DNA of 64,000 nucleotides from Chrysoperla carnea (taxonomy: Eukaryota > Arthropoda > Insecta > Neuroptera > Chrysopidae), in the NCBI RefSeq assembly GCF_905475395.1, contig NC_058342.1, forward strand, positions 28,616,640-28,680,639. The letters are read 5' to 3'. Made by a program: the position numbers and the translations under genes. Of this stretch, positions 3,911 through 63,275 are shown piece after piece. The first letter of the stretch is position 1, and each line of letters opens with the position of its first letter. The notes beneath the pieces are model-generated. The model was given only the letters and a program-made list of their open reading frames with translations, was not told the DNA's origin and did not search any database.

Positions 3911-4178
3911 AATCAGAATCCATAGTTTGAAAAATGGTTTTTCCATATTAAAATTGAAGATTCCCTTCCTGTCAAGATAAACAAAACCGTTGCGTTACAG
4001 TAATAAAAAGAAGAGACGAGTTCAGTGACAGTGATAGTTCCGAGTTCAGTGATAATTCCTATAGATCTCCACATCGGAACTTAATAAGTTTCATAGTAGG
4101 CGGCAAAAACTTATTTTTTGTTTGCACTGTTGTATAAATTTACTTTGCTATGAAATCGTTTTTACGCTTATTCTCTAA

Positions 4179-4657
4179 GGGGGCGTCCATAAATTACGTG
4201 AGATGATTAAGGGGGGGAGGGGGGTCGAGTCATATATCATCTAATCTCACGTTGGGGAGAGGGGGGTCTCGACAAATATCACGCAATTTTTTTTTCTGAT
4301 TGAAACAAAAAAATATTATACTATTTTGTTGAATTTAATCCAAATTGTATGTACATGTTTAAAATTTAATCTTAAGCGTTAACGTAATATGATTAACTTT
4401 TTATTACATTTATAACTCTCAGCAATATTGATTGGTAGTCTTAACTAGTCGTAAATAAAAGCACAAACCAAATTGTTTTTTTCTTTTTACAATAAACAAT
4501 CTAACGCGTTTACGTAATAAACCCACATTCTGAAAAATCTCACGTGAGATTGGGGGACGGGGGAGGGGGTTGACTAAAACCTCACGACATCTCACCAAGG
4601 GGAGAGGGAGGGACAGAAAATTTAAAAAAACACCTCACGTAATTTATGGACGCCCCC
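4179..4657. mobile_element. PIF/Harbinger-like MITE (479 bp) with TAA target-site duplication
   Basis: Near-perfect terminal inverted repeats begin GGGGGCGTCCATAAATTACG at 4179 and end with the reverse complement at 4657. The flanks are TAA at 4176-4178 and TAA at 4658-4660, a 3-bp duplication typical of PIF/Harbinger elements (TWA targets). Sub-terminal runs of G/GA with CTCACG blocks are also mirrored. There is no ORF, so it is non-autonomous. It is inserted in the last codons of the neighbouring zinc-finger gene, whose stop codon (4644-4646) lies inside the right inverted repeat. The superfamily assignment is inferred from target size and end sequence. Confidence 0.85.
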
Positions 4658-5777
4658 TAACGTGAATCCGTTTGTGCTGACTTAATTTATTACGTCTATT
4701 AAATTTTTTATTACAGATATCACACGAAAATGGTTTTTCTTCAGTATGAATCCGTTTGTGTTGAACTAAATTACTTTTAATATTAAATCTTTTATTACAA
4801 ATATCACATGAAAATGGTTTTTCTCCCGTATGAATGAACTTGTGTCGGATTGAAGTGCTTCTATCGGTAAACATTTTATTACAAATATTACAAGAAAATG
4901 GTTTCTCTCCAGTATGAATACGTTTGTGTTGAACCAGTGTGCTTCTATCGGTAAATGTTTTGTTACAAACATCACATGAAAATGGTTTTTCTTCAGTATG
5001 AATCCATTTGTGTCGCACTAAATTACTTTTGATATTAAAAGTTTTATTACAAATATCACAAGAAAATGGTTTTTCTCCAGAATGAATCCGTTCGTGTCGA
5101 ATTAAATTGCTTCTATCGGTAAATGTTTTATTACAAATATCACATGGAAATGCTTTTTCTCCAGAATGAATCCGTTTATGTTGAGCTAAAGTGCTTTTAT
5201 CGGCAAATTTTTTATTACAAATGTCGCATGAGAATGGTTTTTCTCCAGAATGAACCCGTTTGTGTCGAACTAACGTGCCTTTATGTGTAAATTTCTTATT
5301 ACAAATATCACATGAAAATTGTTTATCTTTAGTGGAAATTATTTGCGATTCTAATAAAACACTTTCATCTAATATTTCTTCTTTGATTATTATTTCTGTA
5401 CTTAATTGTTTTTCCAGTTTAATATTTTCATAATTCGCTTTGTATAAATATTCTTCATTTTCATTAATTCGTTCATGTTTCACTCTAGCACTGCCGTTTT
5501 CTTCCATTGTGACATTATCGCCTAATATTTCATTTTCCATTGAAACGTTGTTTTCAAATTTTTCATTTTTAATATTTCCATCTTCGATTTTAACATTAAC
5601 CTCCAATATTTCATTTATAATTCGCTCATCTTCCATTATAAAATGCTCGTCTATTTCACTTTTAATTAATATTAATTCAGTATTTGATTGTTTCTCGAGT
5701 TCCATATTTTCTTCCTTGATTAATAAATTATTATTTGAATAATTAAATAAATTGTTTTCCATTTCGAATAGGGTCAA
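4644..5777 (-). CDS. C2H2 zinc-finger protein, 8 fingers (ZF1)
   Basis: This is a single-exon frame of 377 codons. Residues 1-153 form an acidic, Glu/Asn/Ile-rich region with no recognised domain. Residues 154-377 are eight 28-residue C2H2 fingers of the form C-x2-C-x3-F-x5-L-x2-H-x3-H, joined by SGEKP, TGEKP or TEEKP linkers, which points to nuclear sequence-specific DNA binding (inference from family). Finger 6 has Ser where the helix Leu is expected (RSTSIRH). The start may be Met-6 (codon ending 5762), because the paralogue at 9480-10802 aligns from there (MENNLFNYSNN against MSNNSFDNSN). The last residues after 'RIHV' and the stop codon are encoded by the MITE at 4179-4657; the ancestral end was probably two codons later, as in the paralogue. 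No KRAB or ZAD domain is visible. It resembles lineage-specific insect zinc-finger arrays; target and function are unknown. Confidence 0.88.
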   Translation of the reverse strand: MTLFEMENNLFNYSNNNLLIKEENMELEKQSNTELILIKSEIDEHFIMEDERIINEILEVNVKIEDGNIKNEKFENNVSMENEILGDNVTMEENGSARVKHERINENEEYLYKANYENIKLEKQLSTEIIIKEEILDESVLLESQIISTKDKQFSCDICNKKFTHKGTLVRHKRVHSGEKPFSCDICNKKFADKSTLAQHKRIHSGEKAFPCDICNKTFTDRSNLIRHERIHSGEKPFSCDICNKTFNIKSNLVRHKWIHTEEKPFSCDVCNKTFTDRSTLVQHKRIHTGEKPFSCNICNKMFTDRSTSIRHKFIHTGEKPFSCDICNKRFNIKSNLVQHKRIHTEEKPFSCDICNKKFNRRNKLSQHKRIHVRGRP

Positions 5778-6090
5778 GGCGGCAACAGTGGTTCACTTTT
5801 TTTTCAAGCACCCCTCACTTGACTTAGAAGATTGCTAGGAAGATGCAAATAGCAGTAGTGTATAGTGTAACTAATATATATTGAGTATTTAAATCGATTT
5901 AGTTCAACAGAGTAACATGTTGGGAGATAGGCAGTGTTTAAAAAAAAAAACTGTTTTGAGCCACTTTGTACTGGGGGTCGGATACAGTGAATAGGCCCTC
6001 AGTTTACAGTGAATCAGGCAAGTTCACAGTGAATCACCAATAATATAAGTCAAATAATAATGCTGTTTTTTTAATCTAAGCAGTCTTTAT
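5778..6090. other. Upstream region of ZF1, no feature recognised
   Basis: This stretch lies 5' of ZF1 on the minus strand. It includes a small run, 'cagtgaataggccctcag', and a second 'cagtgaatca' repeated within 30 bp. I see no clear TATA box or initiator that could be defended. Confidence 0.3.
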
Positions 6091-6430
6091 TTATTCATTT
6101 TCTGGAATTGTATTAGTTTGCTTAAATAAAGTGACTACTTCTGGAAAAATTTGGCAGTTCATCAACCCTATTGGAGTTACAAGCCCAAGAGTACACGGAA
6201 GTGTATTCTTTATCATGAAATCCTTATCGTTTTTTCTAGGGAATACCATAACTGGGGTAACGCTACTCCACTCGCACTGATAATTCAACAAGTGGTAACA
6301 AGTGTGCCTCTTTCACAACTTGTTACTTTGCCTATATTTTTACGACCTTTTGGTGCGATTACTTTCTGCGGTTTTTGGACCGTGATTGTAGAAGTTTCGT
6401 CCAGAATAAATATTCTTGTTCCCTCTGCAA
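6085..6430 (-). pseudogene. Decayed Tigger/pogo-type (DDE_1) transposase fragment
   Basis: Reading the minus strand from about 6430 gives 'RIFILDETSTITVQKPQKVI' followed by APKGRKN and GKVTSCERGTLVTTC. Next comes an in-frame TGA, 'IISASG', a frameshift, then TPVMVFPRKNDKDF and a segment ending SQIFPEV-like (NCQIFPEVVTLF). This order (LDET with the catalytic Asp, 'P.K..A.KG....G..TS.ERG.LVT', then '.PP...FPR.', then the '..G.....F..' region) is that of the DDE_1 endonuclease domain of pogo/Tigger/jerky-like transposases. One nonsense codon, one frameshift and missing N- and C-terminal parts show it is dead. Confidence 0.8.
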
Positions 6431-6489
6431 ATGCCGAACTTCGTTTCATTTGGTTTTATAAGTTGTTTCCTCAGGTTTTGTTAAAGTAA

Positions 6490-7170
6490 GTACTGGATTT
6501 CAACTTTTAAAATTTTAAAGACAGTTCTTTCCTGCCATTTCGTTTTTTTTCCATGAATCTGGCATTTTTAAATTATTGAAAAGAACCTTCGGCATTCCTT
6601 CGTACTTAATCCGTAAAAGAGTAACGCACAGTATTTAAAATAATCTCAACATTTTTTCTGGCTCTTCACTGAAAACTTTATTAACGCTATAGTTTGGCGT
6701 TAAACGAGCATAAAAATATAGCATTTTTTTAATTTTCTAATAGTAAAGTAATGTTATTATTAGTAGACATAATGAGTACACAGTGGAGCATAAACCACTG
6801 TGACCTCAAGTGATTTGAGCCACTGAGTACAAAACCGCCATTTTGGAATTAAGCTACACCACGCGCCGCAATTTTGCGTGAGTGGAAGTTCAGTATTTAC
6901 CAAAATAATGTCAATTATACTTATTTTCCAGTAAAACTAATAATACCTTGATATAGCGAAATTGTGATATCTACGCATAGAAAGGCCGCCTAGAGCATGA
7001 AAAAGTTAGAACGATATCTCTTATAGTTTCTAAGCAATGCCTACTGCGCCAGTGTTCCCGCTATAGCCACTGTTGCCGCCTTAACCCTACACACTAATGA
7101 GTAAAATACTAACTCTGATACTAATGTGCTGCGACTGCCAAACTTTTTTATCCTGACTAAACAAGTTTAT
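6490..7170. other. Intergenic stretch, nothing recognised
   Basis: No ORF of interest is present. A short imperfect palindromic pair is visible ('cagtggagcataaaccactg' near 6780-6800), but no element boundaries can be fixed. Confidence 0.3.
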
Positions 7171-7174
7171 CCTA

Positions 7175-7540
7175 ATTCAAATAAAACCCTTCACCTAATA
7201 TTTTATCTTTGATTATTTCTGTATTTAATTCATGTTTCATTTTAGCACTGCTGTTGTTGACGTATTGCTTCTTCCATTGTAACATTGTCTTCTAATATTT
7301 CATTTTTAAATGTTCTGCTTTCCACCGTAACTTGTTCCATTTTCTATCGTAACGTTGCTTTTATAAATATTTCATTTTTAAAGGTAATATAAGGGTTATA
7401 ATATTTCAATTATAATTCGCTCATTTTTTGTTAATATAAAATAATTTTCTACTTCACTTTTAATTATTAATTACGTGTTTAATTGTTCATTGACGAACAA
7501 ATGATTATTTGAATTATGAAAATAATTATTTACCAATTTT
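7175..7540 (-). pseudogene. Pseudogene of a third zinc-finger paralogue (N-terminal region only)
   Basis: Read on the minus strand from about 7535, fragments align with the N-terminal part of ZF2: 'SNNHLFVNEQLNT', a stop, 'LIIKSEVENYFILTKNERII', a stop, then 'VESRTFKNEILEDNVTMEEA', a further stop and frameshifts, and 'LNTEIIK...ILGEG'. The order matches NSNIHLF, QLNTELIIKSEMEEHFIL, VESETFKNELLENNV and LNTEIIIKEEILDES of ZF2. The start codon is lost and all zinc fingers are absent after about 7175. It lies between the two intact paralogues in the same orientation, as expected for a degenerated member of a tandem cluster. Confidence 0.85.
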
Positions 7541-7769
7541 ACATTTGTTACTTCCTTGTTCCTAACCTCAAATCAAATTACTCAGGCGTTGTTAAACTTT
7601 TTTAGCAGAAAAATTTCTGTGGATTAGTATTAGGCTCTATACGTATGGGTATGATCGTCCGCCATTTTGGATAATATCAAAAAGACTGTAAAGACATGAC
7701 ATGACTTCACATTACTTTTCTAATGTGAAGTTTTTTTAATGAATTTTATATTTATTTTACCCCTGGTAA

Positions 7770-8559: not shown

Positions 8560-9475
8560 TAGGTAAACATTTAACAAAGTAGGCAATTAGATATTTGCAT
8601 GAAATTTATTTTTCGAATTTCTTAACAAAATTTGAAATAAATCGTAAGCGAGATGATAAAAAGTGAAATTAAAATTAAAAAAGGCTATGAAATACGAATG
8701 ATATAAGCATTTTAAAGACAGATACTAAAAAGAGAAATTCGATAAGAACAATGAAGTCAGTGTTTCATAACTACGCCTTGTTAAATTGTGTTTTGCTAGA
8801 ATGAGCAAATTGCTATTCAAAACAAATTTTTTCTCGGCTGTTTGTTACATGAATATCTTTTTAGTAAAAAAAAATCATGCAAATACCCAATTGTCTATGG
8901 GCCCCACAATGTCCAAAATGACTTAGGAATACGATTATCAATCAGTGCCAAAAAAATAATAATTCGTAAAGCACAAATAAAAAAAGTTAGATGGAAAAGA
9001 ATTATTTGTGTGAAAATATACATTAAACAAATTTTGTCAATCAATTTTAAGAATAAAAAGCTAAACTATGTTTATCTTTTGAAAATACTTAATCTAAAAA
9101 ATAAAATTCAAGTTCAAAGGTGCTAAATTTGTATGAAAAAAAAAAAAAAAATTATATGAGGACACAAACTGCAAAGTTTACAAAATTATAAAAGACTAGA
9201 GGATCAATATCTTTTGTCTTTTCATTCAATGAAAAAATCAGACGAGTGTAACAGGTATAGTTTACATTTTTTCATACTCGTGGCGCTGACATCTATCTTA
9301 GCGTTAAAATCGAATAAACACATACGTAAACATGCCATTTATAACAACATCGGGTCCCCATAGGACACGATCCAGAAGGGGGCGAGCCGTGCAACCACTC
9401 GGAACGGCAAAAATGTGGGATTGGGTTTCGTTGGGTTGAGAACCATGAAATTTATTTTGCTATGAAATCGATTTT
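8560..9475. other. Intergenic stretch downstream of ZF2, nothing recognised
   Basis: A 94-codon open frame on the plus strand (8842-9126) is Lys/Ile-rich and has no domain; I do not call it. The last 40 bases before 9480 ('ttgctatgaaatcgatttta') match the sequence just left of the MITE at 4148-4170. This shows that the 3' ends of ZF1 and ZF2 were duplicated together with the coding region. Confidence 0.4.
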
Positions 9476-9479
9476 ATGC

Positions 9480-10802
9480 TTATTTTCCAATGTGAATCGC
9501 CTTGTGCCTAAGTACAGAGCTTCTATATGTTAATTTTTTATTACAAATATCACAAGAAAATGGTTTTTCTCTTGTATGAACTCGTATATGTTGAGCTAAA
9601 CTGCTTCTATCAGCAAATTTTGTATTGCAAATGTCACAAGAAAACGGTTTTTCGCCAGTATGTAACCGTATGTGTCGAGCTAAATTGGGTTTTTGTGTAA
9701 AACTTTTATTACAAATATGACATGAAAATGGTTTTTTCTCCATATGAACTCGTTTGTGTTGAGATAAATTGCCTCCTTCAGCAAATCTTTTATTGCAAAT
9801 GTCACATAAAAACGGTTTTTCGCCAGTATGTAACCGTATGTGTCCAGCTAAATTGGTTTTTTGTGTAAAATTTTTATTACAAATATGACATGAAAATGGT
9901 TTTTCACCCGTGTGAATGCGATTGTGTTGAATTAAAGTTCTTTTTTGTGCAAATGTTTTATTACAAATATCACAAGAAAATGGTTTTTCTCTTGTATGAA
10001 CTCGTTCATGTTGAGCTAAACTGCTTCTATCAGCAAATTTTGTATTGCAAATGTCACAAAAAAACGGTTTTTCGCCAGTATGCAACCGTATGTGTCGAGC
10101 TAAATTGCTTTTTTGTGTAAAATTTTTATTACAAATATGACATGGAAATAGTTTTTCACCCGTGTGAATGCGATTGTGTTGAATTAAAGTTCCTTTTTGT
10201 GTAAATGTTTTATTACAGATATCACATGAAAATTGTTTAACTTTAGTGGAAATTATTTGTGATTCTAATAAAACACTTTCATCTAATATTTCTTCTTTGA
10301 TTATTATTTCTGTATTTAATTCTTTTTCGAGTTTAATATTTTCATAATTCACTTTGTTTAAATGTTCTTCATTTTCATTAATTCGTTCATGTTTCACTCT
10401 AGCACTGCCGTTTTCTTCCATTGTTCCAATTCGTTCACGTTTTCCTTTAGCACTGTTGTTTAGTATGAGTATTGCTTCTTCCGTTGTAACTGACACATTG
10501 TTTTCTAATAATTCATTTTTAAATGTTTCACTTTCCACTGTAACACTTTCTTCGAATATTTCATTTTTAATTGTTCTGCTTTCCACCATAACGTTGTCTT
10601 CAAATATTTCATTTTTAATGGTTCCATCTTCCATTCTAACATTATCCTCCAATATTTCAATTTTAATTCCCTCATTTTCCATTAATATAAAATGCTCTTC
10701 CATTTCACTTTTAATTATTAATTCCGTATTCAATTGTTTTTCGATATTTTCGTCATTGATGAATAAATGAATATTTGAATTATCAAATGAATTATTTGAC
10801 AT
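9480..10802 (-). CDS. C2H2 zinc-finger protein, 9 fingers (ZF2)
   Basis: This is a single-exon frame of 440 codons. Residues 1-190 are acidic and contain about three imperfect 16-residue repeats of the type TIKNEIFEDNVMVES. Residues 191-440 are nine C2H2 fingers with TGEKP, TREKP and MEKKP linkers. The fingers form a repeating three-finger module: helix starts QKGTLIQ/QKRTLIQ, then QKSNLAR/QKTNLAG/QKPNLAR, then DRSSLAQ. That indicates duplication of a three-finger block. The last finger is atypical, with Leu for the conserved Phe (NKKLTYRSSVLRH) and Val for the helix Leu. It is a paralogue of ZF1 (4644-5777); both share the segment from ENGSARVKHERINENEE to LLESQIISTK. A nuclear DNA-binding regulator is inferred; its target is unknown. 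Confidence 0.88.
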   Translation of the reverse strand: MSNNSFDNSNIHLFINDENIEKQLNTELIIKSEMEEHFILMENEGIKIEILEDNVRMEDGTIKNEIFEDNVMVESRTIKNEIFEESVTVESETFKNELLENNVSVTTEEAILILNNSAKGKRERIGTMEENGSARVKHERINENEEHLNKVNYENIKLEKELNTEIIIKEEILDESVLLESQIISTKVKQFSCDICNKTFTQKGTLIQHNRIHTGEKLFPCHICNKNFTQKSNLARHIRLHTGEKPFFCDICNTKFADRSSLAQHERVHTREKPFSCDICNKTFAQKRTLIQHNRIHTGEKPFSCHICNKNFTQKTNLAGHIRLHTGEKPFLCDICNKRFAEGGNLSQHKRVHMEKKPFSCHICNKSFTQKPNLARHIRLHTGEKPFSCDICNTKFADRSSLAQHIRVHTREKPFSCDICNKKLTYRSSVLRHKAIHIGK

Positions 10803-17049: not shown

Positions 17050-17890
17050 GGTAACGCCCTTCTTAGATTTGTCTTCTAACCATTGCGGGACTCCTCAGGA
17101 TATCAATTTTTTCAGTAGTTTTTGTCAAATTCGAGAATTTTAATTGGTTTCCAATTTCGATAAAACTCAGTACATAAGGTAATTTTGATCCAAAAAATTC
17201 AAAAATCGGGTTCATTGGACGATTAGAGGCGCAGTTTCTGAGAAAGTGGCACTTCATAGTGAATTTTTGGCAATATCTCCGAAACTATGCATCTAATAAT
17301 CAAATTAACCCGATTTTTGAATTTTTTGGGTCGAAATTACCTTTTATACTGAGTTTTGTCGAAATTGGAGACAATAAAATTTTTTCGATTTTTTGCGATT
17401 TTTCTAAGGGGTACCCCTTAGAAAAAAATCGAAAAATTCGAGAATTGTTTTTGGTTTCCAAAATCGATAAAACTCAGTACATAAGGTAATTTTGACCCAA
17501 AAAATTCAAAAATCGGGTTCATTGGACGATTAGAGGCGCAGTTTCTGAGAAAGTGGCACTTCATAGTGAATTTTTGGCAATATCTCCGAAACTATGCATC
17601 TAATAATCAAATTAACCCGATTTTTGAATTTTTTGGGTCGAAATTACCTTTTATACTGAGTTTTGTCGAAATTGGAGACAATAAAATTTTTTCGATTTTT
17701 TGCGATTTTTCTAAGGGGTACCCCTTAGAAAAAAATCGAAAAATTCGAGAATTGTTTTTGGTTTCCAAAATCGATAAAACTCAGTACATAAGGTAATTTT
17801 GACCCAAAAAATTCAAAAATCGTGTTCATTAGACGATTAGAGGCGCAGTTTCTGAGAAAGTAGTACTTCACAGGGAGATATCCGAAACTA
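17050..17890. repeat. Tandem array of the ~307-bp palindromic-core repeat
   Basis: Two almost identical full monomers (the shift between 17259 and 17566 is 307 bp) are flanked by partial units. Each has the perfect palindrome TCTAAGGGGTACCCCTTAGA, extended by A/T runs to 28 bp (17399-17426 and 17706-17733). Around it are 'gattttttgcga', 'aaaaaaatcgaaaaattcga', 'gataaaactcagtacataag' and 'ggttcattggacgattagag'. The internal open frames (17259-17489, 17566-17796) are by-products. Near identity of the two monomers implies recent duplication or conversion. Confidence 0.9.
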
Positions 17891-26200: not shown

Positions 26201-29200
26201 TATCTACATTTTAAAGAAATAAATAATATTAGCTTACGGTGGTGATGTGATGTTTCTATCTTTCAGGCTTGTATTTGGCTGCTTCTGAATTGTGAGTTCT
26301 TGACCCTCGAATGTGTTGCAGTACTGTATCTGCTGTGGGGACGGCACAGGCATTAAATTAGGTTCCTTATTAGGACTTCCTGAGATGTCGGTAGAACCAG
26401 GAGGTAATCCACTTACCATATGTTGTTTTTGAGCCATGGACTGAAGTGTGCGGCAGAACATACCATCCACTAAAAAAAAGACATTTATTTGCAAAATTTG
26501 ATATTTATTTTTCTACTTATAAAGTTATTCTTATTTTATATAAGAAATAACCCCGGCAAAAGTTTACGAACATTAGTTTAAAGGGAGCTATTCAGAAGTC
26601 CCCAAATCACTAATTTTTTGTAAAATTTTAGAAGAGCTTATAAAAACGAAATAATATTTAAAACTTACCTCCATGATGTGTCGATGTAACGACTCCAGGG
26701 CCACCAGCTCCAGTAAATTCACTGGACGTACCACCATTCCCGGACGATGCTTGGGCTGTCAATGAATCGGTTGCAGGTGTTGTTGCACTGGGTGAAAAAT
26801 GTGAGGATATTGGTGTCCCTGGATTACTAATTGTGTTTGTGCCTCGAGGACCACCACTAGGACCCGATGGTGAACTTTGTGATGTTGGACTTTGCGTTGC
26901 ACTGAAATGTCTATTTAATCCCGAAAATTGTTGCCGATTATTTGAATCGGCTGGTGAATTTAAAGCAGATGATGTACGTGGCGAGGGTAAGGATAAATTT
27001 GATGTAGGATTATTTGGAGATGCTGGGCTAGGACTTTGTAATGCAATTGGTACACTTGCAGAACGAGGCGTTTGATGATAGGGTGGCGGTGGTCCTTGTA
27101 ACCTAGGACCTTGTCCGCTTCCAGGCACTTGTGGTGATAGAACCGATCCAGACCCGGGTGGTAGTCCTGGTGGCATAGGTACCATTCCACGTAATCCTGG
27201 ACCCATTGGTCCTTCTTGTTTGATTTTATTATCAAAGAATTGATTTTGTAATTTTTGCCATTCCATATGGCCAGGCATTGATGTCGCAGGCATCATTCCT
27301 GGACAATTACCAGGTGGACCACCACCTGGCGTGTCCGTTGCATTTCCACCCATGTCATGTTCATCTGTTGAAATATTTATGAAATTTCACAGTTTTAAAT
27401 TGTTACAAGTTATTTTCAAAACCTTGTATTTGATTAGTTTCAATAAATGTTTTAAAATCAAAATAGTTTTTTATTTAAAAAAATTACAGAACCAAAAAGA
27501 ACTGTCTTTTCCTTTCGAGAGATTGTATTAGTTTTCATTTTTTGAATTGTGTAAATCGAATCATAATTTACAATATCAACCGTCGAATGGAAATAGTCTT
27601 TAACAAAAGGTAGAGACACGTAATAAAAGTTACAAGATATAAAGCAATGGCTCGTGCGCCATGTGAGAGCAAGTTTATGACCCTATCAAATACTTTGACT
27701 AAAAATGGCGAACAACGGTAGAGACTTGAGAAGTTGCCACCCAAAAAGGTACTTTCTTTATCCTAACTCAACACACATATAAATTGTCTACCCTCTTACT
27801 TAATACAGAAGTTTTTTTGAAAATAAAATCACCAATTGCTTAAATTCGATTTTAAAAATGTGTAAAAGAGTCCTGTTTCAATCAATCAAAATTCGATGAT
27901 AAAACTATTTTGATTTTAAATGATAATCTATTCGAAATACTACCTCCAATATTCATTGCACCGGGATTTTCTTCAGGAAATAACATTTGTTGCATTTTTC
28001 GTAATGTGGCTAATTGTTCTTCACGATGCTGTCGCTGTTGGGGCGTTAAATCTTCATCAGGAACTTTAACACCTTGTAGTGATGGCTCTAAACCAGCCAA
28101 TGAAGGACTGGTCGGTGCTGTACTTGTTATACAAGGGCTATGGCCTAACATTAATGCAGTGTTTGCATTGCCAGGAGCACCAGGTGCAGATGAAGTGCCT
28201 GCAAGACATGCATCATCTAGACTAGGATCAGATAACGGTCCAGTACCATCGGGGCCGGCATTTGGTGGAACAGGCATGCCCATTTGATGATTTGGGCGCT
28301 GTAAAATATTACAAAAGATATTAAACAAATTGTCGATGAAAAATTTGTCAAAAAATATTGTCCTGGGACACAAACTTAACATAATAAAAACAAAAAAAAA
28401 TTCAACTTTTGATTTTTCTTTTATTTCCATAAATATTTTTTCCAGAATTCCATAATAGTTCCCGATTTTATCGGTTGACGTCCACTCTAATAATATCTTT
28501 AATTACATTTTCAAAAATAACAAGGTTTTTTGACGGGATCATCAAACGACGCCAAAAAACTTGTATGACAAAAGCTTTACTCATTTTTAAGTTGCCAAAC
28601 ATTCCACAAAATTTTGTAATATGAGCGTATAGCCAATTAGGACATTTAATCCACAAATTCGTTGTAAAATCCAAAAAAATTGTTTCTATTTCTCAAAATA
28701 CTAAAATTAGTATACCTTGATATATATTTCATATATACAGGGTATAATAAAGTTTTTTTATTATGGTGACATTGGGATCTCCTTTAACTTCAACTTTTTG
28801 GTTATCCAAAATTTGTTTGAGTACCAAGTTAAAGTGTTCTATAGGGCCCCCCTTCCTTCTATTAAAATTTCGTTTCGGATTTCGATTTGTCGTAAACCTA
28901 GCCCTATTTTTTCGTATTAATTTACTATTTACTCACAAAAATTATCTCTTAAAATAAAATCATTCAAATAACACTTTCTTATCCCTCTACCCTGATAACC
29001 AAAATAAAAATAGTGAATATACCTGTTCCCATGGCACATCTGATTCTTGCAACGACGCAATATCGTCAACAATTCCATCGTGTCCTGGAAAACTATCCAC
29101 CATACCCATCGGTCCACCGCCTGGTTTTGGTGGAAAATTAGGCATACCAGGCATACCACCGGGTGGTCCTTGTTGTGGTCCACCACCGCCCATGTTACCT

Positions 29201-35689: not shown

Positions 35690-36895
35690 AAACTGGCAGC
35701 CTAATTGGATAAAATTTAAAAGCGACATAGCCAAATTAATTTTTTACGTCATAAAGTTAAAAAATTATATTTTTTTGATAACACAGGCAAATTTGATTCG
35801 ATTTTATTGGAATTTTTTTTGAAACCCACTAATTTTGGGTCATTTTTTTCAGCTGTGATGTTAGTTTTTCGCTACCTATCACTTATGTGCTCTATTCCGA
35901 GACCATGACTCCACATTATTGAAATCTATTAAAGCTAGGTCAATTTTGATCACAAATTTGAAAAGTATGACCCAAATTTAGTAGGATTACATATTTGATT
36001 TATCAAAATTGGATAAAATTTGGATGTGATAGAGCAAAATTAATTTTTTTGGATTTTGATGACGTCATAGAGTTCAAAATTTCGATTTTTTGATAGCACA
36101 GGCAATTTTGATCCGATTTAAGTGGAATTTTTTTTGAAACCTACTAATTTTGGGTCATTCTTTTCAGCTGTGATGTCAATTTTTCGCTAGCTACCACTTT
36201 TGTGCGTAATACCGAAACCAGGACTCCACATTCTTGAAATCTAATAAAGCTAGGTCAATTTTGATTACAAATTTGAAAAGTATGACCCAAATTTAGTAGG
36301 ATTACATACTTGATTTATCAAAATTGGATAAAATTTGGATGTGATAGAGCAAAATTGAATTTTTTGGATTTTGATGACGTCATAGGGTTAAAAATTTTGA
36401 TTTTTTCGATAACATAGGTAAACTTGATCCGATAGTATTGGAATTTTTTTTGAAACCCACTAATTTTGAGTCATTCTTTTCACCTGTGATGTCAGTTTTT
36501 TGCTAGCTATCACTCATGTGCTATATTCCGGAACCATGACTCCACATTCTTTAAACCTATTAAAGCTAGGTTAATTTTGATTACAAATTTGAAAAGTATG
36601 ACCCAAATTTAGTAGGATTACATACTTGATTTATCAAAATTGGATAAAATTTGGATGTGATAGAGCAAAATTAATTTTTTTGGATTTTGATGACGTCATA
36701 GAGTTCAAAATTTCGATTTTTTGATAGCACAGGCAATTTTGATCCGATTTAAGTGGAATTTTTTTTGAAACCTACTAATTGTGGGTCATTCTTTTCAGCT
36801 GTGATATCAATTTTTCGATAGCTACCACTTATGTGCTTAATTCCGAGATCAGGACTCGACATTTTTGAAACCTGTTAAGGCTAGGTTAATTTTTC
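35690..36895. repeat. Tandem array, period about 315 bp, with TGACGTCA in each conserved unit
   Basis: About 3.8 units. The anchor GACGTCATAG occurs at 36061, 36375 and 36692 (spacing 314 and 317), with a degenerate ACGTCATAAAG at 35746. Shared blocks are 'ggataaaatttggatgtgat', 'agagcaaaattaatttttt', 'agcacaggcaattttgatcc', 'tttgaaacctactaattttg', 'ttcagctgtgatgtc', 'ccacattcttgaaatcta' and 'gtatgacccaaatttagtag'. The octamer TGACGTCA is the CRE/ATF consensus; its function here is not shown. No ORF. Confidence 0.9.
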
Positions 36896-44100: not shown

Positions 44101-47100
44101 ATGAAGTGGACTAAATTTTTAGGTGGCCTGTTAGTTATTTGTTTGTATAGTATTTCAACAGTAAACGCTTCAGAATTATTTCGAGGTAAATTATATTCAA
44201 TTAATTGTCCTTACTGAGTCAATTGCGATCAATTTGACTTATTAATGTTTAATTATTTTGTTTACATAATGTAAGCTTTTAAAAACAATTTAGAGAGGCA
44301 TAAATTTGGGTTTGGTTTTAATTAATCAATTTAAATATCTCGAGAAAAATCTCGTATTTGAATAGGCGAAAAAAAAAAGCATTTTGTTTGAGATAGAAAC
44401 ATTTGGAAATACAAATAAACAGAGTATTATTGAAAAATATGTTTTTTTTTTTACATAATTTTGAATTAAAAACTTGTTTCATTGAATAATTAATATAAAT
44501 TAATTCAAAATTTTATATAAATATTGAATTTATTTAAAGTGTTTTTTTGAATTTGAATAAATCGGCTAATTTTAGTTTTGTGTCCGTGGTCTGACATTAA
44601 ATAATACATCTCGTATATTGGCGTGACACTCCCGTTCTTTTTGATATTTTGACATTTCGTATATTATTTTAGTTTTGATATTGAAATTGAAAGTTTCAAT
44701 TTGAAATTTTGTTAATTTCATGACAGAAATTATGCAAAAAATATTGTTTATCAGTAAATTTCATTACCATTTAATTAAAAACAAAATTTGTTTATTATTT
44801 TTAAATATATATTTCCGTTTCTCGTAAGGAAATATTTGCAATTGTGTGAAATTGTAGGTTTCAGATTGAAATTTCGAAAATTTCATGACAGAAATTATTC
44901 CAAAAACATTGTTTATCAGTAAATTTCATTACCATTTAATATAAACAAAAATTGTGTATTATTTTTAAATATATTTCCTTTTTCGTAAAGAAATATATGC
45001 TATTGTTTGAAATTGTAGGTTTCAGATTGAAATTTCGGAAATTTCATGACAGAAATTATGCAAAAAATATTGTTTATCAGTAAATTTCATTACCATTTAA
45101 TATAAACAAAAATTGTTTATTATTTTTTAATACATTTCCTTTTTTCGTAGAGAAATATATGCAATTGTTTGAAATTGTAGGTTTCAGATTGAAATTTCGA
45201 AAATTTCATGACTGAAATTATGCAAAAAATATTGTTTTAGTAGTCAATTTCATTATCATTTAATAAAAACAAAAATTGTTTATTTTTTAATATATATTTC
45301 CTTTTCTTCTAAGGAAATATTTGTTATGGTGTGAAATTGTAGGTTTCAGATTGAAATTTCGAACATTTCTTGACAGAAATTATGCAAAAAATATTGTTCT
45401 ATTAGTTAATTTCATTACCATTTAATATTTTAACTATTTTTAAATATATATTTCCTTTTTTCGTAAAGAAATATATGCAATTGTTTGAAATTGTAGGTTT
45501 CAGATTGAAATTTCGAAAATTTTATGGCTGAAATTTTGCAAAAAATATGGTTTATAAGTAAATTTCATTACTTATTACTTATTATTATTATTTTTTACTG
45601 AATATTTCCTTTTTTGTAAAGAAATATTTGCAATTCTTTGAAATTGTAAGGTTTCAGATTGAAATTTTGCAAATTTCATGACAGAAATTTTTCAAAATAA
45701 TATTTAGTAAAAATGACTGTAATGTAAATAACAAAAACTTTTTATTGCTTGTAAAACACATTTTTTTGGTAATGAAATATATCAATGATTGAAATTGTAG
45801 GTTTCAAATTGAAATTTCGGAAATTTTCTTACAGAAATATAACAATTTCTTAAAAATTTCAAATTGCGTTCAATAAACCATGAAATTTGTATATATATTT
45901 GAGGCCATTTTCCTTTATCTTAGGAAAATTGTAGATTTCAGTTTGAAATTTTAAAAATTACATTTCGAAACTTAATAATTTGAAAATTAAAAAAATTTTT
46001 AACAGTTAAAAATGAATACAAAATTTTGTTTATTATTTTTGTTATTTTGTACTTGTTTTGAAAATATGTCAGTTTAAAATTTTGCATATTTTTAAGGTTG
46101 AAATTTTGTGTATTTTTAAACAGAATTATATATTTTTTTCTAAAAACAATTTTGCTAATTAGCAAATTTTAAAATTTCCTAATTTATTTCGGGAAATATT
46201 TTCTTAATTTATGGGAAAATGCTTTACATATGTAAAATTTCATTTTGACAGTATAAACGGTTAAATAGTGATTGAAACATGTCACAATTATTAAAATACT
46301 TTGTAAGATTACATTTAAAGTTTTTATATACTTTCGATAATCATATTTCCTTTCTCACCAGGAACTATCATTTAAATTAAGGAAATTGGATTTGTATCTT
46401 ATAACATTCCGGAATGGGGATAAAACTCACATCCCATTTACTATCAATATTACTTCTTTTTTTAAATAAATATTATTTTGATAAACGAAGAAATTAGGAG
46501 ATATACTAAATTTATTTATAAATAAGTGAAAATAAGCAATTGATTGAGTTAATTGTATAAATACCTTGGATAGACAATGTTGAATTGCTTTATTTTTAAT
46601 AAATTAGAAAAGATTAAAACAACACACATTTATGTCGGCACGGTTTTGCTGAAATTTGCACCCTCACGGTTATACAATGATGTCTACGAAAAAATGCCTC
46701 AAACAAAAATGTTTTTTTTTTTTTGAAATATCATAAGTTCACAAATCGTTTATCGATGATGAAAATCGTTCCAAACTTGTTAAACGGGAGTTTTTGAGAA
46801 TCGGACTCGTGAGGTACCCGGTGCCGAGGGTAAACGGTATATCCCTAAACGGGATATTTTCGGAAAATTCGTTATATAATCGTTCCGAACTTGTTACGCG
46901 GAGGTTTTTGGGATCGCTGAGGACGAATATCGTGACAGAATTGATCCCTCTGGGTACTCCGGGCTTCGTGCCCGATTCTGTAACTAGTTTGGATCGATTT
47001 ACCGTGGACCGATAACGAATTTCCTGAAAATATCCCGGGATGGTGTTTACCCTGGTCACCACGTACTTCAGAGACCAATTTTGGCGCGATATTATCGACA

Positions 47101-62370: not shown

Positions 62371-63275
62371 GTCTCGATTTTCGATTGAATTTGATTTCGA
62401 TAAAACTCAATAAAAATAATTTTGAGACTACAAATACAAAAATCGGATTTATGTACCCGATTATTATATAATCAATTTAATCGGAATCGAAGGCAAAAAA
62501 AATTTTTTTGCGTTTTTCTTAAGGGGTACCCCTTAGAAAAAATCAATAAAATCGGGAAAAAGTTTTTGTTTCCGATTTCGATAAAACTCGGTATTAGAGG
62601 TAATTTTGAGCCAAAAAGAACAAAAATCGGGTTTCTGTATCGATTGGATGCATAGTTTCTGAGAAAATCGCTTTTTGTGTCCAATTTTGGATTATATCTC
62701 AAAAGCCACGCATCCATTCATTAAATAAACCCAATTTTTTGATTTTTTGGGTCAAAATTATCGTATATATTGAATTTTATCGATATCGAAGGCAAAAATT
62801 TTTTTCGATTTTTTGCATTTTTCTTAAGGGGTACCCCTTAGAAAAAATCGAAAAAATCGGGAAAAAGTTTTTGTTTCCGATTTCGATAAAACTCGGTATT
62901 AGAGGTAATTTTGAGCCAAAAAGAACAAAAATCGGGTTTCTGTATCGATTGGATGCATAGTTTCTGAGAAAATCGCTTTTTGTATCCAATTTTGGATTAT
63001 ATCTCAAAAGCCGCGCATCCATTCATTAAATAAACCCAATTTTTGGATTTTTTGGGTCAAAATTATCTTATATAATAAATTTTATCGATATCAAAGGCAA
63101 AAAAATTTTTTTGATTTTTTGGATTTTTCTTAAGGGGTACCCCTTAGAAAAAATCGAAAAAAATCGGGACAAAGTTTTTGTTTCCGATTTCGATAAAAAT
63201 CTGTATAAATAGTAATTCTAAGCCAAAAAATACAAAAATTGGGTCTATGTATCGATTAGATGCATAGTTTCTGAA
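62370..63275. repeat. Tandem array of the ~306-bp palindromic-core repeat (three units)
   Basis: The core TAAGGGGTACCCCTTA is at 62519-62534, 62825-62840 and 63131-63146 (306-bp spacing). Each is framed by 'tcgaaggcaaaaa', 'aaaaatcg', 'tttgtttccgatttcgataa', 'aactcggtattagaggtaat', 'ttgagccaaaaagaacaaaa', 'gggtttctgtatcgattgga' and 'tgcatagtttctgagaaaat'. The open frames in the array are by-products of repetition. Confidence 0.92.

Follow-up and report, generated by a model that had tools for sequence, protein, structure and literature searches.

A young MITE-like transposon appears to supply the stop codon of a zinc-finger gene in Chrysoperla carnea

The window, by which we mean the whole stretch of 64,000 nucleotides analyzed here (G000:C6:28616640-28680639), contains two neighboring genes, ZF1 and ZF2, coding for C2H2 zinc-finger proteins. 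Their eight and nine tandem fingers, respectively, follow the pattern C-X2-C-X12-H-X3-H, are joined by H/C links and are matched by the Pfam families PF00096 and PF13465. The 372-codon frame of ZF1 is open, and the C2H2 residues are kept in 8/8 of its fingers. Between the two genes, dS is 0.15 across the whole N-terminal part and 0.06 in the N-terminal block where they are most alike; dN/dS, at 0.72 for the N-terminal part and 0.40 for the full alignment, in which the alignment of the fingers is uncertain, lies weakly below 1. The genome searched was a single assembly of 559 Mb in 337 contigs. A motif common to both gene ends, searched there with up to three mismatches, was found in ZF1 and ZF2 only, with no second allele and no third paralogue, and no further C2H2 cluster was found in the 100 kb left of the window. 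The coordinates of the features discussed below are collected in Table 1.

Table 1. Features at the ZF1 and ZF2 locus, in positions of the window.
Feature	Position	Strand	Description and basis
AGTAAA	4139..4144	-	former native poly(A)-signal position of ZF1; aligns with the AATAAA of ZF2
Former stop codon of ZF1, TAA	4168..4170	-	displaced, now past the element; flank join, aligns with the ZF2 stop at 9480-9482
Target site duplication TAA, left copy	4176..4178	.	flank sequence
MITE-like element, non-autonomous	4179..4657	.	479 bp, interrupts the ZF1 end; ends, target site duplication, genome-wide family
Left terminal inverted repeat	4179..4208	+	GGGGGCGTCCATAAATTACGTGAG...; 28/30 complementary to the right end
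AATAAA brought by the element	4400..4405	-	candidate poly(A) signal, 238 nt past the new stop; sequence
Right terminal inverted repeat	4628..4657	-	contains the new stop codon of ZF1; inverted match to the left end
New stop codon of ZF1, TAA	4644..4646	-	within the element; frame reading
ZF1 reading frame	4644..5762	-	372 aa, eight C2H2 fingers, end ...RIHVRGRP-stop
Target site duplication TAA, right copy	4658..4660	.	flank sequence
Second, older DNA transposon	5771-7087		1317 bp; terminal inverted repeat GGGTCAAGGCGGCAACAGTGG, target site duplication TA, decayed coding region
Decayed N-terminal relict of a ZF gene	7175-7541		without fingers; 69% identical to ZF2 over 378 aligned columns
AATAAA of ZF2	9451..9456	-	23 nt past the stop; sequence
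ZF2 reading frame	9480..10802	-	440 aa, nine C2H2 fingers, uninterrupted end ...AIHIGK-stop

The end of ZF1 is interrupted by a 479-bp element whose outermost 30 bp on the two sides form inverted repeats with 28 matching positions. Terminal inverted repeats and a TAA target site duplication around an element of this length, inserted in the last codons of ZF1, were the core of the original prediction; exact alignment of the site recovered both the repeats and a TAA on each side, and a dispersed family of related copies supports the same reading. Among 63,514 other 479-bp segments taken as a chance control, the best inverted end match was 27/30, as compared to 28/30 for the element, and the segment reaching this score lies inside a tandem array, at position 17174. 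Since a control match of 27/30 also occurs, the ends alone are suggestive and not decisive, and it is the family that decides. The element contains no transposase gene; its longest stop-to-stop frame spans 71 amino acids and is not ATG-bound.

Searching the genome for the exact 24-base terminus preceded by TWA retrieved 118 matches, while the reversed control pattern retrieved none. The family amounts to at least 66 matched pieces, a lower bound obtained with 40 of 113 candidates scored. We collected 33 complete copies, including the one in ZF1, from 29 of 30 search loci, from a full view of the thirtieth (L031) and from three of four further places, leaving out the truncated copy L045. Thirty-one of these 33 have a 3-bp target site duplication (TAA or TTA in 29/33, the rest AAA and TTT), and two complete copies, L014 and L043, are without one. 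The short form, of 479-525 bp, is represented by 12 copies; the other copies have both ends in common with it and contain an extra middle. In the longest copy, L031 (1904 bp), we found ORF fragments of 164 and 118 amino acids, one of them with a C2H2-like motif, for which searches gave no Pfam family and no informative PDB match. A reverse transcriptase reading frame adjoins this copy (L031:6271-7620) and is presumably of the Ty3 type, judging from its motif. Among the matches listed (100 of the 118), exact ends pair into 42 elements of 302-992 bp, which represent several deletion forms and not one length. By this comparison, the 479-bp copy arose by deletion from a longer element. The label MITE, as first proposed, fits its shortness, its inverted repeats and its 3-bp duplication, and MITE-like is a fair term for such a deleted form, although the family is not uniform in length. 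At G000:C2:87955343-87957226, two family elements of similar length, each with both exact ends, lie about 300 bp apart.

We did not identify an intact transposase tied to these ends using Pfam, PDB, and the PF07592 and PF13359 profiles. Following unpaired ends 5 kb inward at four places retrieved no autonomous partner; these places hold short elements, of about 430, 400 and 800 bp and one truncated. The exact terminal inverted repeat pattern had no match in viral_contigs or in genome_contigs, and a scan of viral_contigs for an autonomous partner gave five pattern matches and no relatives. Among open-licence papers we found no report of the element: a text match to its terminus in PMC4954755 was a primer coincidence, and the remaining matches to parts of the terminus letters were unrelated, as judged by their titles.

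The 3-bp TWA target site duplication by which PIF/Harbinger elements are recognized is present in the family. Tourist-like MITEs of that group, such as mPing, share with it the TTA/TAA duplication, short inverted repeats, the lack of a working gene and a high copy number; for mPing, a TTA/TAA duplication and precise excision are described (PMC4561436). The TWA duplications fit a Tourist/PIF-Harbinger assignment, but we do not file the element there, because no such transposase is linked to its ends: the profile DDE_Tnp_4 (PF13359) has 73 matches in the genome, none of them closer than 81,630 bp to an element end in a comparison that covered 113 places, 100 of the 118 exact-end places among them. 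The DDE_Tnp_4 (Harbinger-type) matches themselves include several groups with identical scores, with open frames of 408-518 amino acids and none linked to the element. A 3-bp duplication is also ascribed to the Zator superfamily in another paper (PMC10045372), a likeness that the family again shares. The corresponding profile, PF07592 (ISAzo13-type transposase, Zator), had no match in the genome, but it also matched 0/14 controls.

At its present end, ZF1 reads CAC GTT AGG GGG CGT CCA TAA, or RIHV-RGRP-stop, the stop codon being located in the right inverted repeat. The first reading, according to which the frame passes RIHV and gains four residues, was right about RGRP and about the stop inside the element; the R, though, comes from a hybrid codon (AGA to AGG), and the net change in ZF1 is from E to GRP. 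When the flanks are joined with one TAA kept, the sequence becomes CAC GTT AGA GAA TAA (HKRIHVRE-stop), which ends two codons past RIHV as anticipated, and as does ZF2 (HKAIHIGK-stop). The joined flanks align with ZF2 without a gap across the junction and are identical to it at 50 of 59 bases, over a block that begins at the GCACAA of the last finger and extends some 30 nt beyond the stop. The 23 bases before this block, inside the last finger, match poorly (3/10 and 2/10 in the first two tens) because the finger arrays of the two genes have diverged. The left flank of ZF1 does match the natural end of ZF2, placed earlier at 9461-9488, with the block beginning at 9458.

At the target itself, ZF2 reads ATTGGA where the empty form of ZF1 reads GTTAGA, and has TTG in place of the TTA target. 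ZF2 therefore presents the uninterrupted homologous sequence and not the literal pre-insertion site, so that the proposed preservation of the empty site by the paralogue is correct for the uninterrupted end but not for the target. The wider proposal had been a transposon-driven change of the C-terminus with the ancestral state visible 5 kb away; the insertion and its stop codon stand, but the change is tiny, and the ancestral state of the ZF1 end is one that we infer from ZF2. The predicted effect on the protein is slight, with E replaced by GRP after the last finger and all eight fingers intact. The six combinations of orientation and phase of the element would add 3, 3, 8, 11, 21 or 24 whole codons; the actual one adds only 3, which is part of the reason why the insertion could be tolerated.

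Relative to the family majority, the copy in ZF1 carries one substitution in 478 positions (BLAST alignments with 28 other complete copies), a figure that comprises substitutions and leaves indel columns aside. When the 12 short copies are aligned with MAFFT, it departs from the majority in 39 columns, of which 35 are single-base gap columns, most of them at the internal deletion junction; 4 to 5 columns are substitution-like, and 4 of these lie at the same junction. Its distances to the other 11 short copies range from 0.010 to 0.125. From the BLAST figure, the insertion looks recent and the element young, and the family has apparently been mobile in this genome in recent times. By either dS value, ZF1 and ZF2 are more diverged from each other than the element is from its majority, which places the insertion after the gene duplication.

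Our main reading, to which we assign a probability of about 0.9, is that a young MITE-like insertion at a TTA in the end of ZF1 created a new stop codon and put RGRP in the place of RE, with the fingers untouched. A non-autonomous cut-and-paste DNA transposon with a preference for 3-bp TWA targets would have entered the TTA spanning the second-last sense codon, the insertion itself probably being the work of a transposase acting in trans. In the actual phase and orientation, translation would pass through one hybrid codon and three codons of the element before meeting a stop in the inverted repeat, and what used to be the last codon, the stop and the 3' flank of ZF1 would have moved 482 bp downstream. 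With the eight fingers untouched, DNA binding by ZF1 would presumably be unchanged and the effect near neutral. The opposite view, in which the GGGGGCG...CGCCCCC segment is ancestral to this site and was deleted from ZF2, requires the precise loss from ZF2 of the element together with one TAA; the target site duplication, the inverted repeats and the dispersed, near-identical family also argue against it, and we consider it extremely improbable and in practice refuted. Under the reading of a young insertion, the 3' UTR of the ZF1 mRNA is probably longer than before and begins in the element, as the reading frame implies, and this mRNA may end at the AATAAA of the element, a hexamer that 28 of 29 complete copies have at the corresponding place. 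Whether the element provides the working 3' end, with cleavage after this AATAAA in place of the weak native AGTAAA, is a point on which we lean slightly to the negative. The hexamer does lie on the strand of the gene, and ZF1 reads AGTAAA, 23 nt past its former stop, where ZF2 reads AATAAA at the same distance; but a hexamer says little in a sequence of 70% A+T, and ATTAAA and other sites are also present. The polarity of the AGTAAA/AATAAA difference is not set by two sequences, this gene end being confined to ZF1 and ZF2. Decay from AATAAA to AGTAAA after the insertion is unlikely given the single substitution in the element, so that AGTAAA more likely predates an element this young.

The 5' side of ZF1 bears on whether it is a living gene. 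The second, older DNA transposon, unrelated to the 479-bp element, ends 8 bp before the ATG of ZF1; it recurs at 11 other genomic places, the three longest of these being 86-88% identical, and it had no Pfam match. Beyond it lies the relict of an N-terminal region, which, judging from its similarity to ZF2, represents a third member of the cluster that is now dead. These two neighbors, and an N-terminal dN/dS that is only mildly below 1, would agree with ZF1 being already dead or dying and the insertion being debris in a pseudogene, but the open frame and intact fingers of ZF1 suggest function, and we find such an end of the gene unlikely. In substitution-only neutral simulations the ZF1 frame was still open in 5.7% of cases at 0.05 substitutions per site and in 1.4% at 0.075; the argument from the open frame depends on the age assumed, because 56% of simulated frames stay open at 0.01 per site, and it is silent on the time since insertion. 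ZF1 may therefore be on its way out, or may be a gene with both of its untranslated ends made by transposons. As the young inserted copy is close to identical with the rest of its family, and as precise excision is possible for elements of the TWA type, one could also imagine two forms of ZF1, each with its own 3' end and C-terminus, segregating in the species, or the gene reverting from one form to the other, which would amount to a natural switch; we hold this to be unlikely.

Miniature elements that create stop codons and transposons that supply 3' ends are already known, and the ZF1 case is ordinary in kind. In wheat, the miniature mobile element Mariam lies in a coding exon and makes an early stop (PMC6824096); as described there, it has no terminal inverted repeats and interrupts exon 6, shortening the frame, whereas in ZF1 only the last codon is altered. 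In CSB-PGBD3, a DNA transposon provides the 3' end of a host gene product, with a poly(A) signal (PMC2268245), and the ZF1 element likewise carries a candidate signal, AATAAA; that case involves an intronic transposase gene that is used through splicing, unlike the direct coding insertion, with no transposase, in ZF1. The biological effect of the ZF1 insertion is probably small. Its interest is that of a clean, young case, with the uninterrupted sister gene 5 kb away, in which a DNA transposon has rewritten how a host coding sequence ends; on it one can test how often insertions after the last functional domain are tolerated and whether an inverted repeat gives a usable 3' end. The element family should also be useful as a marker.

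Elsewhere in the window, Rfam and tRNA scans gave no match. An intact BCL9 domain (PF11502) is encoded at 27882-28502 on the minus strand, and the minus strand between 22 and 30 kb contains exons of a BCL9-domain gene with a long glutamine run, which we take to be legless-like. Four tandem arrays, at 17127-17870, 35746-36893, 44681-45838 and 62504-63274, have periods of 307, 315, 162 and 305 bp, respectively, and those at 17 kb and 62 kb look related by sequence.
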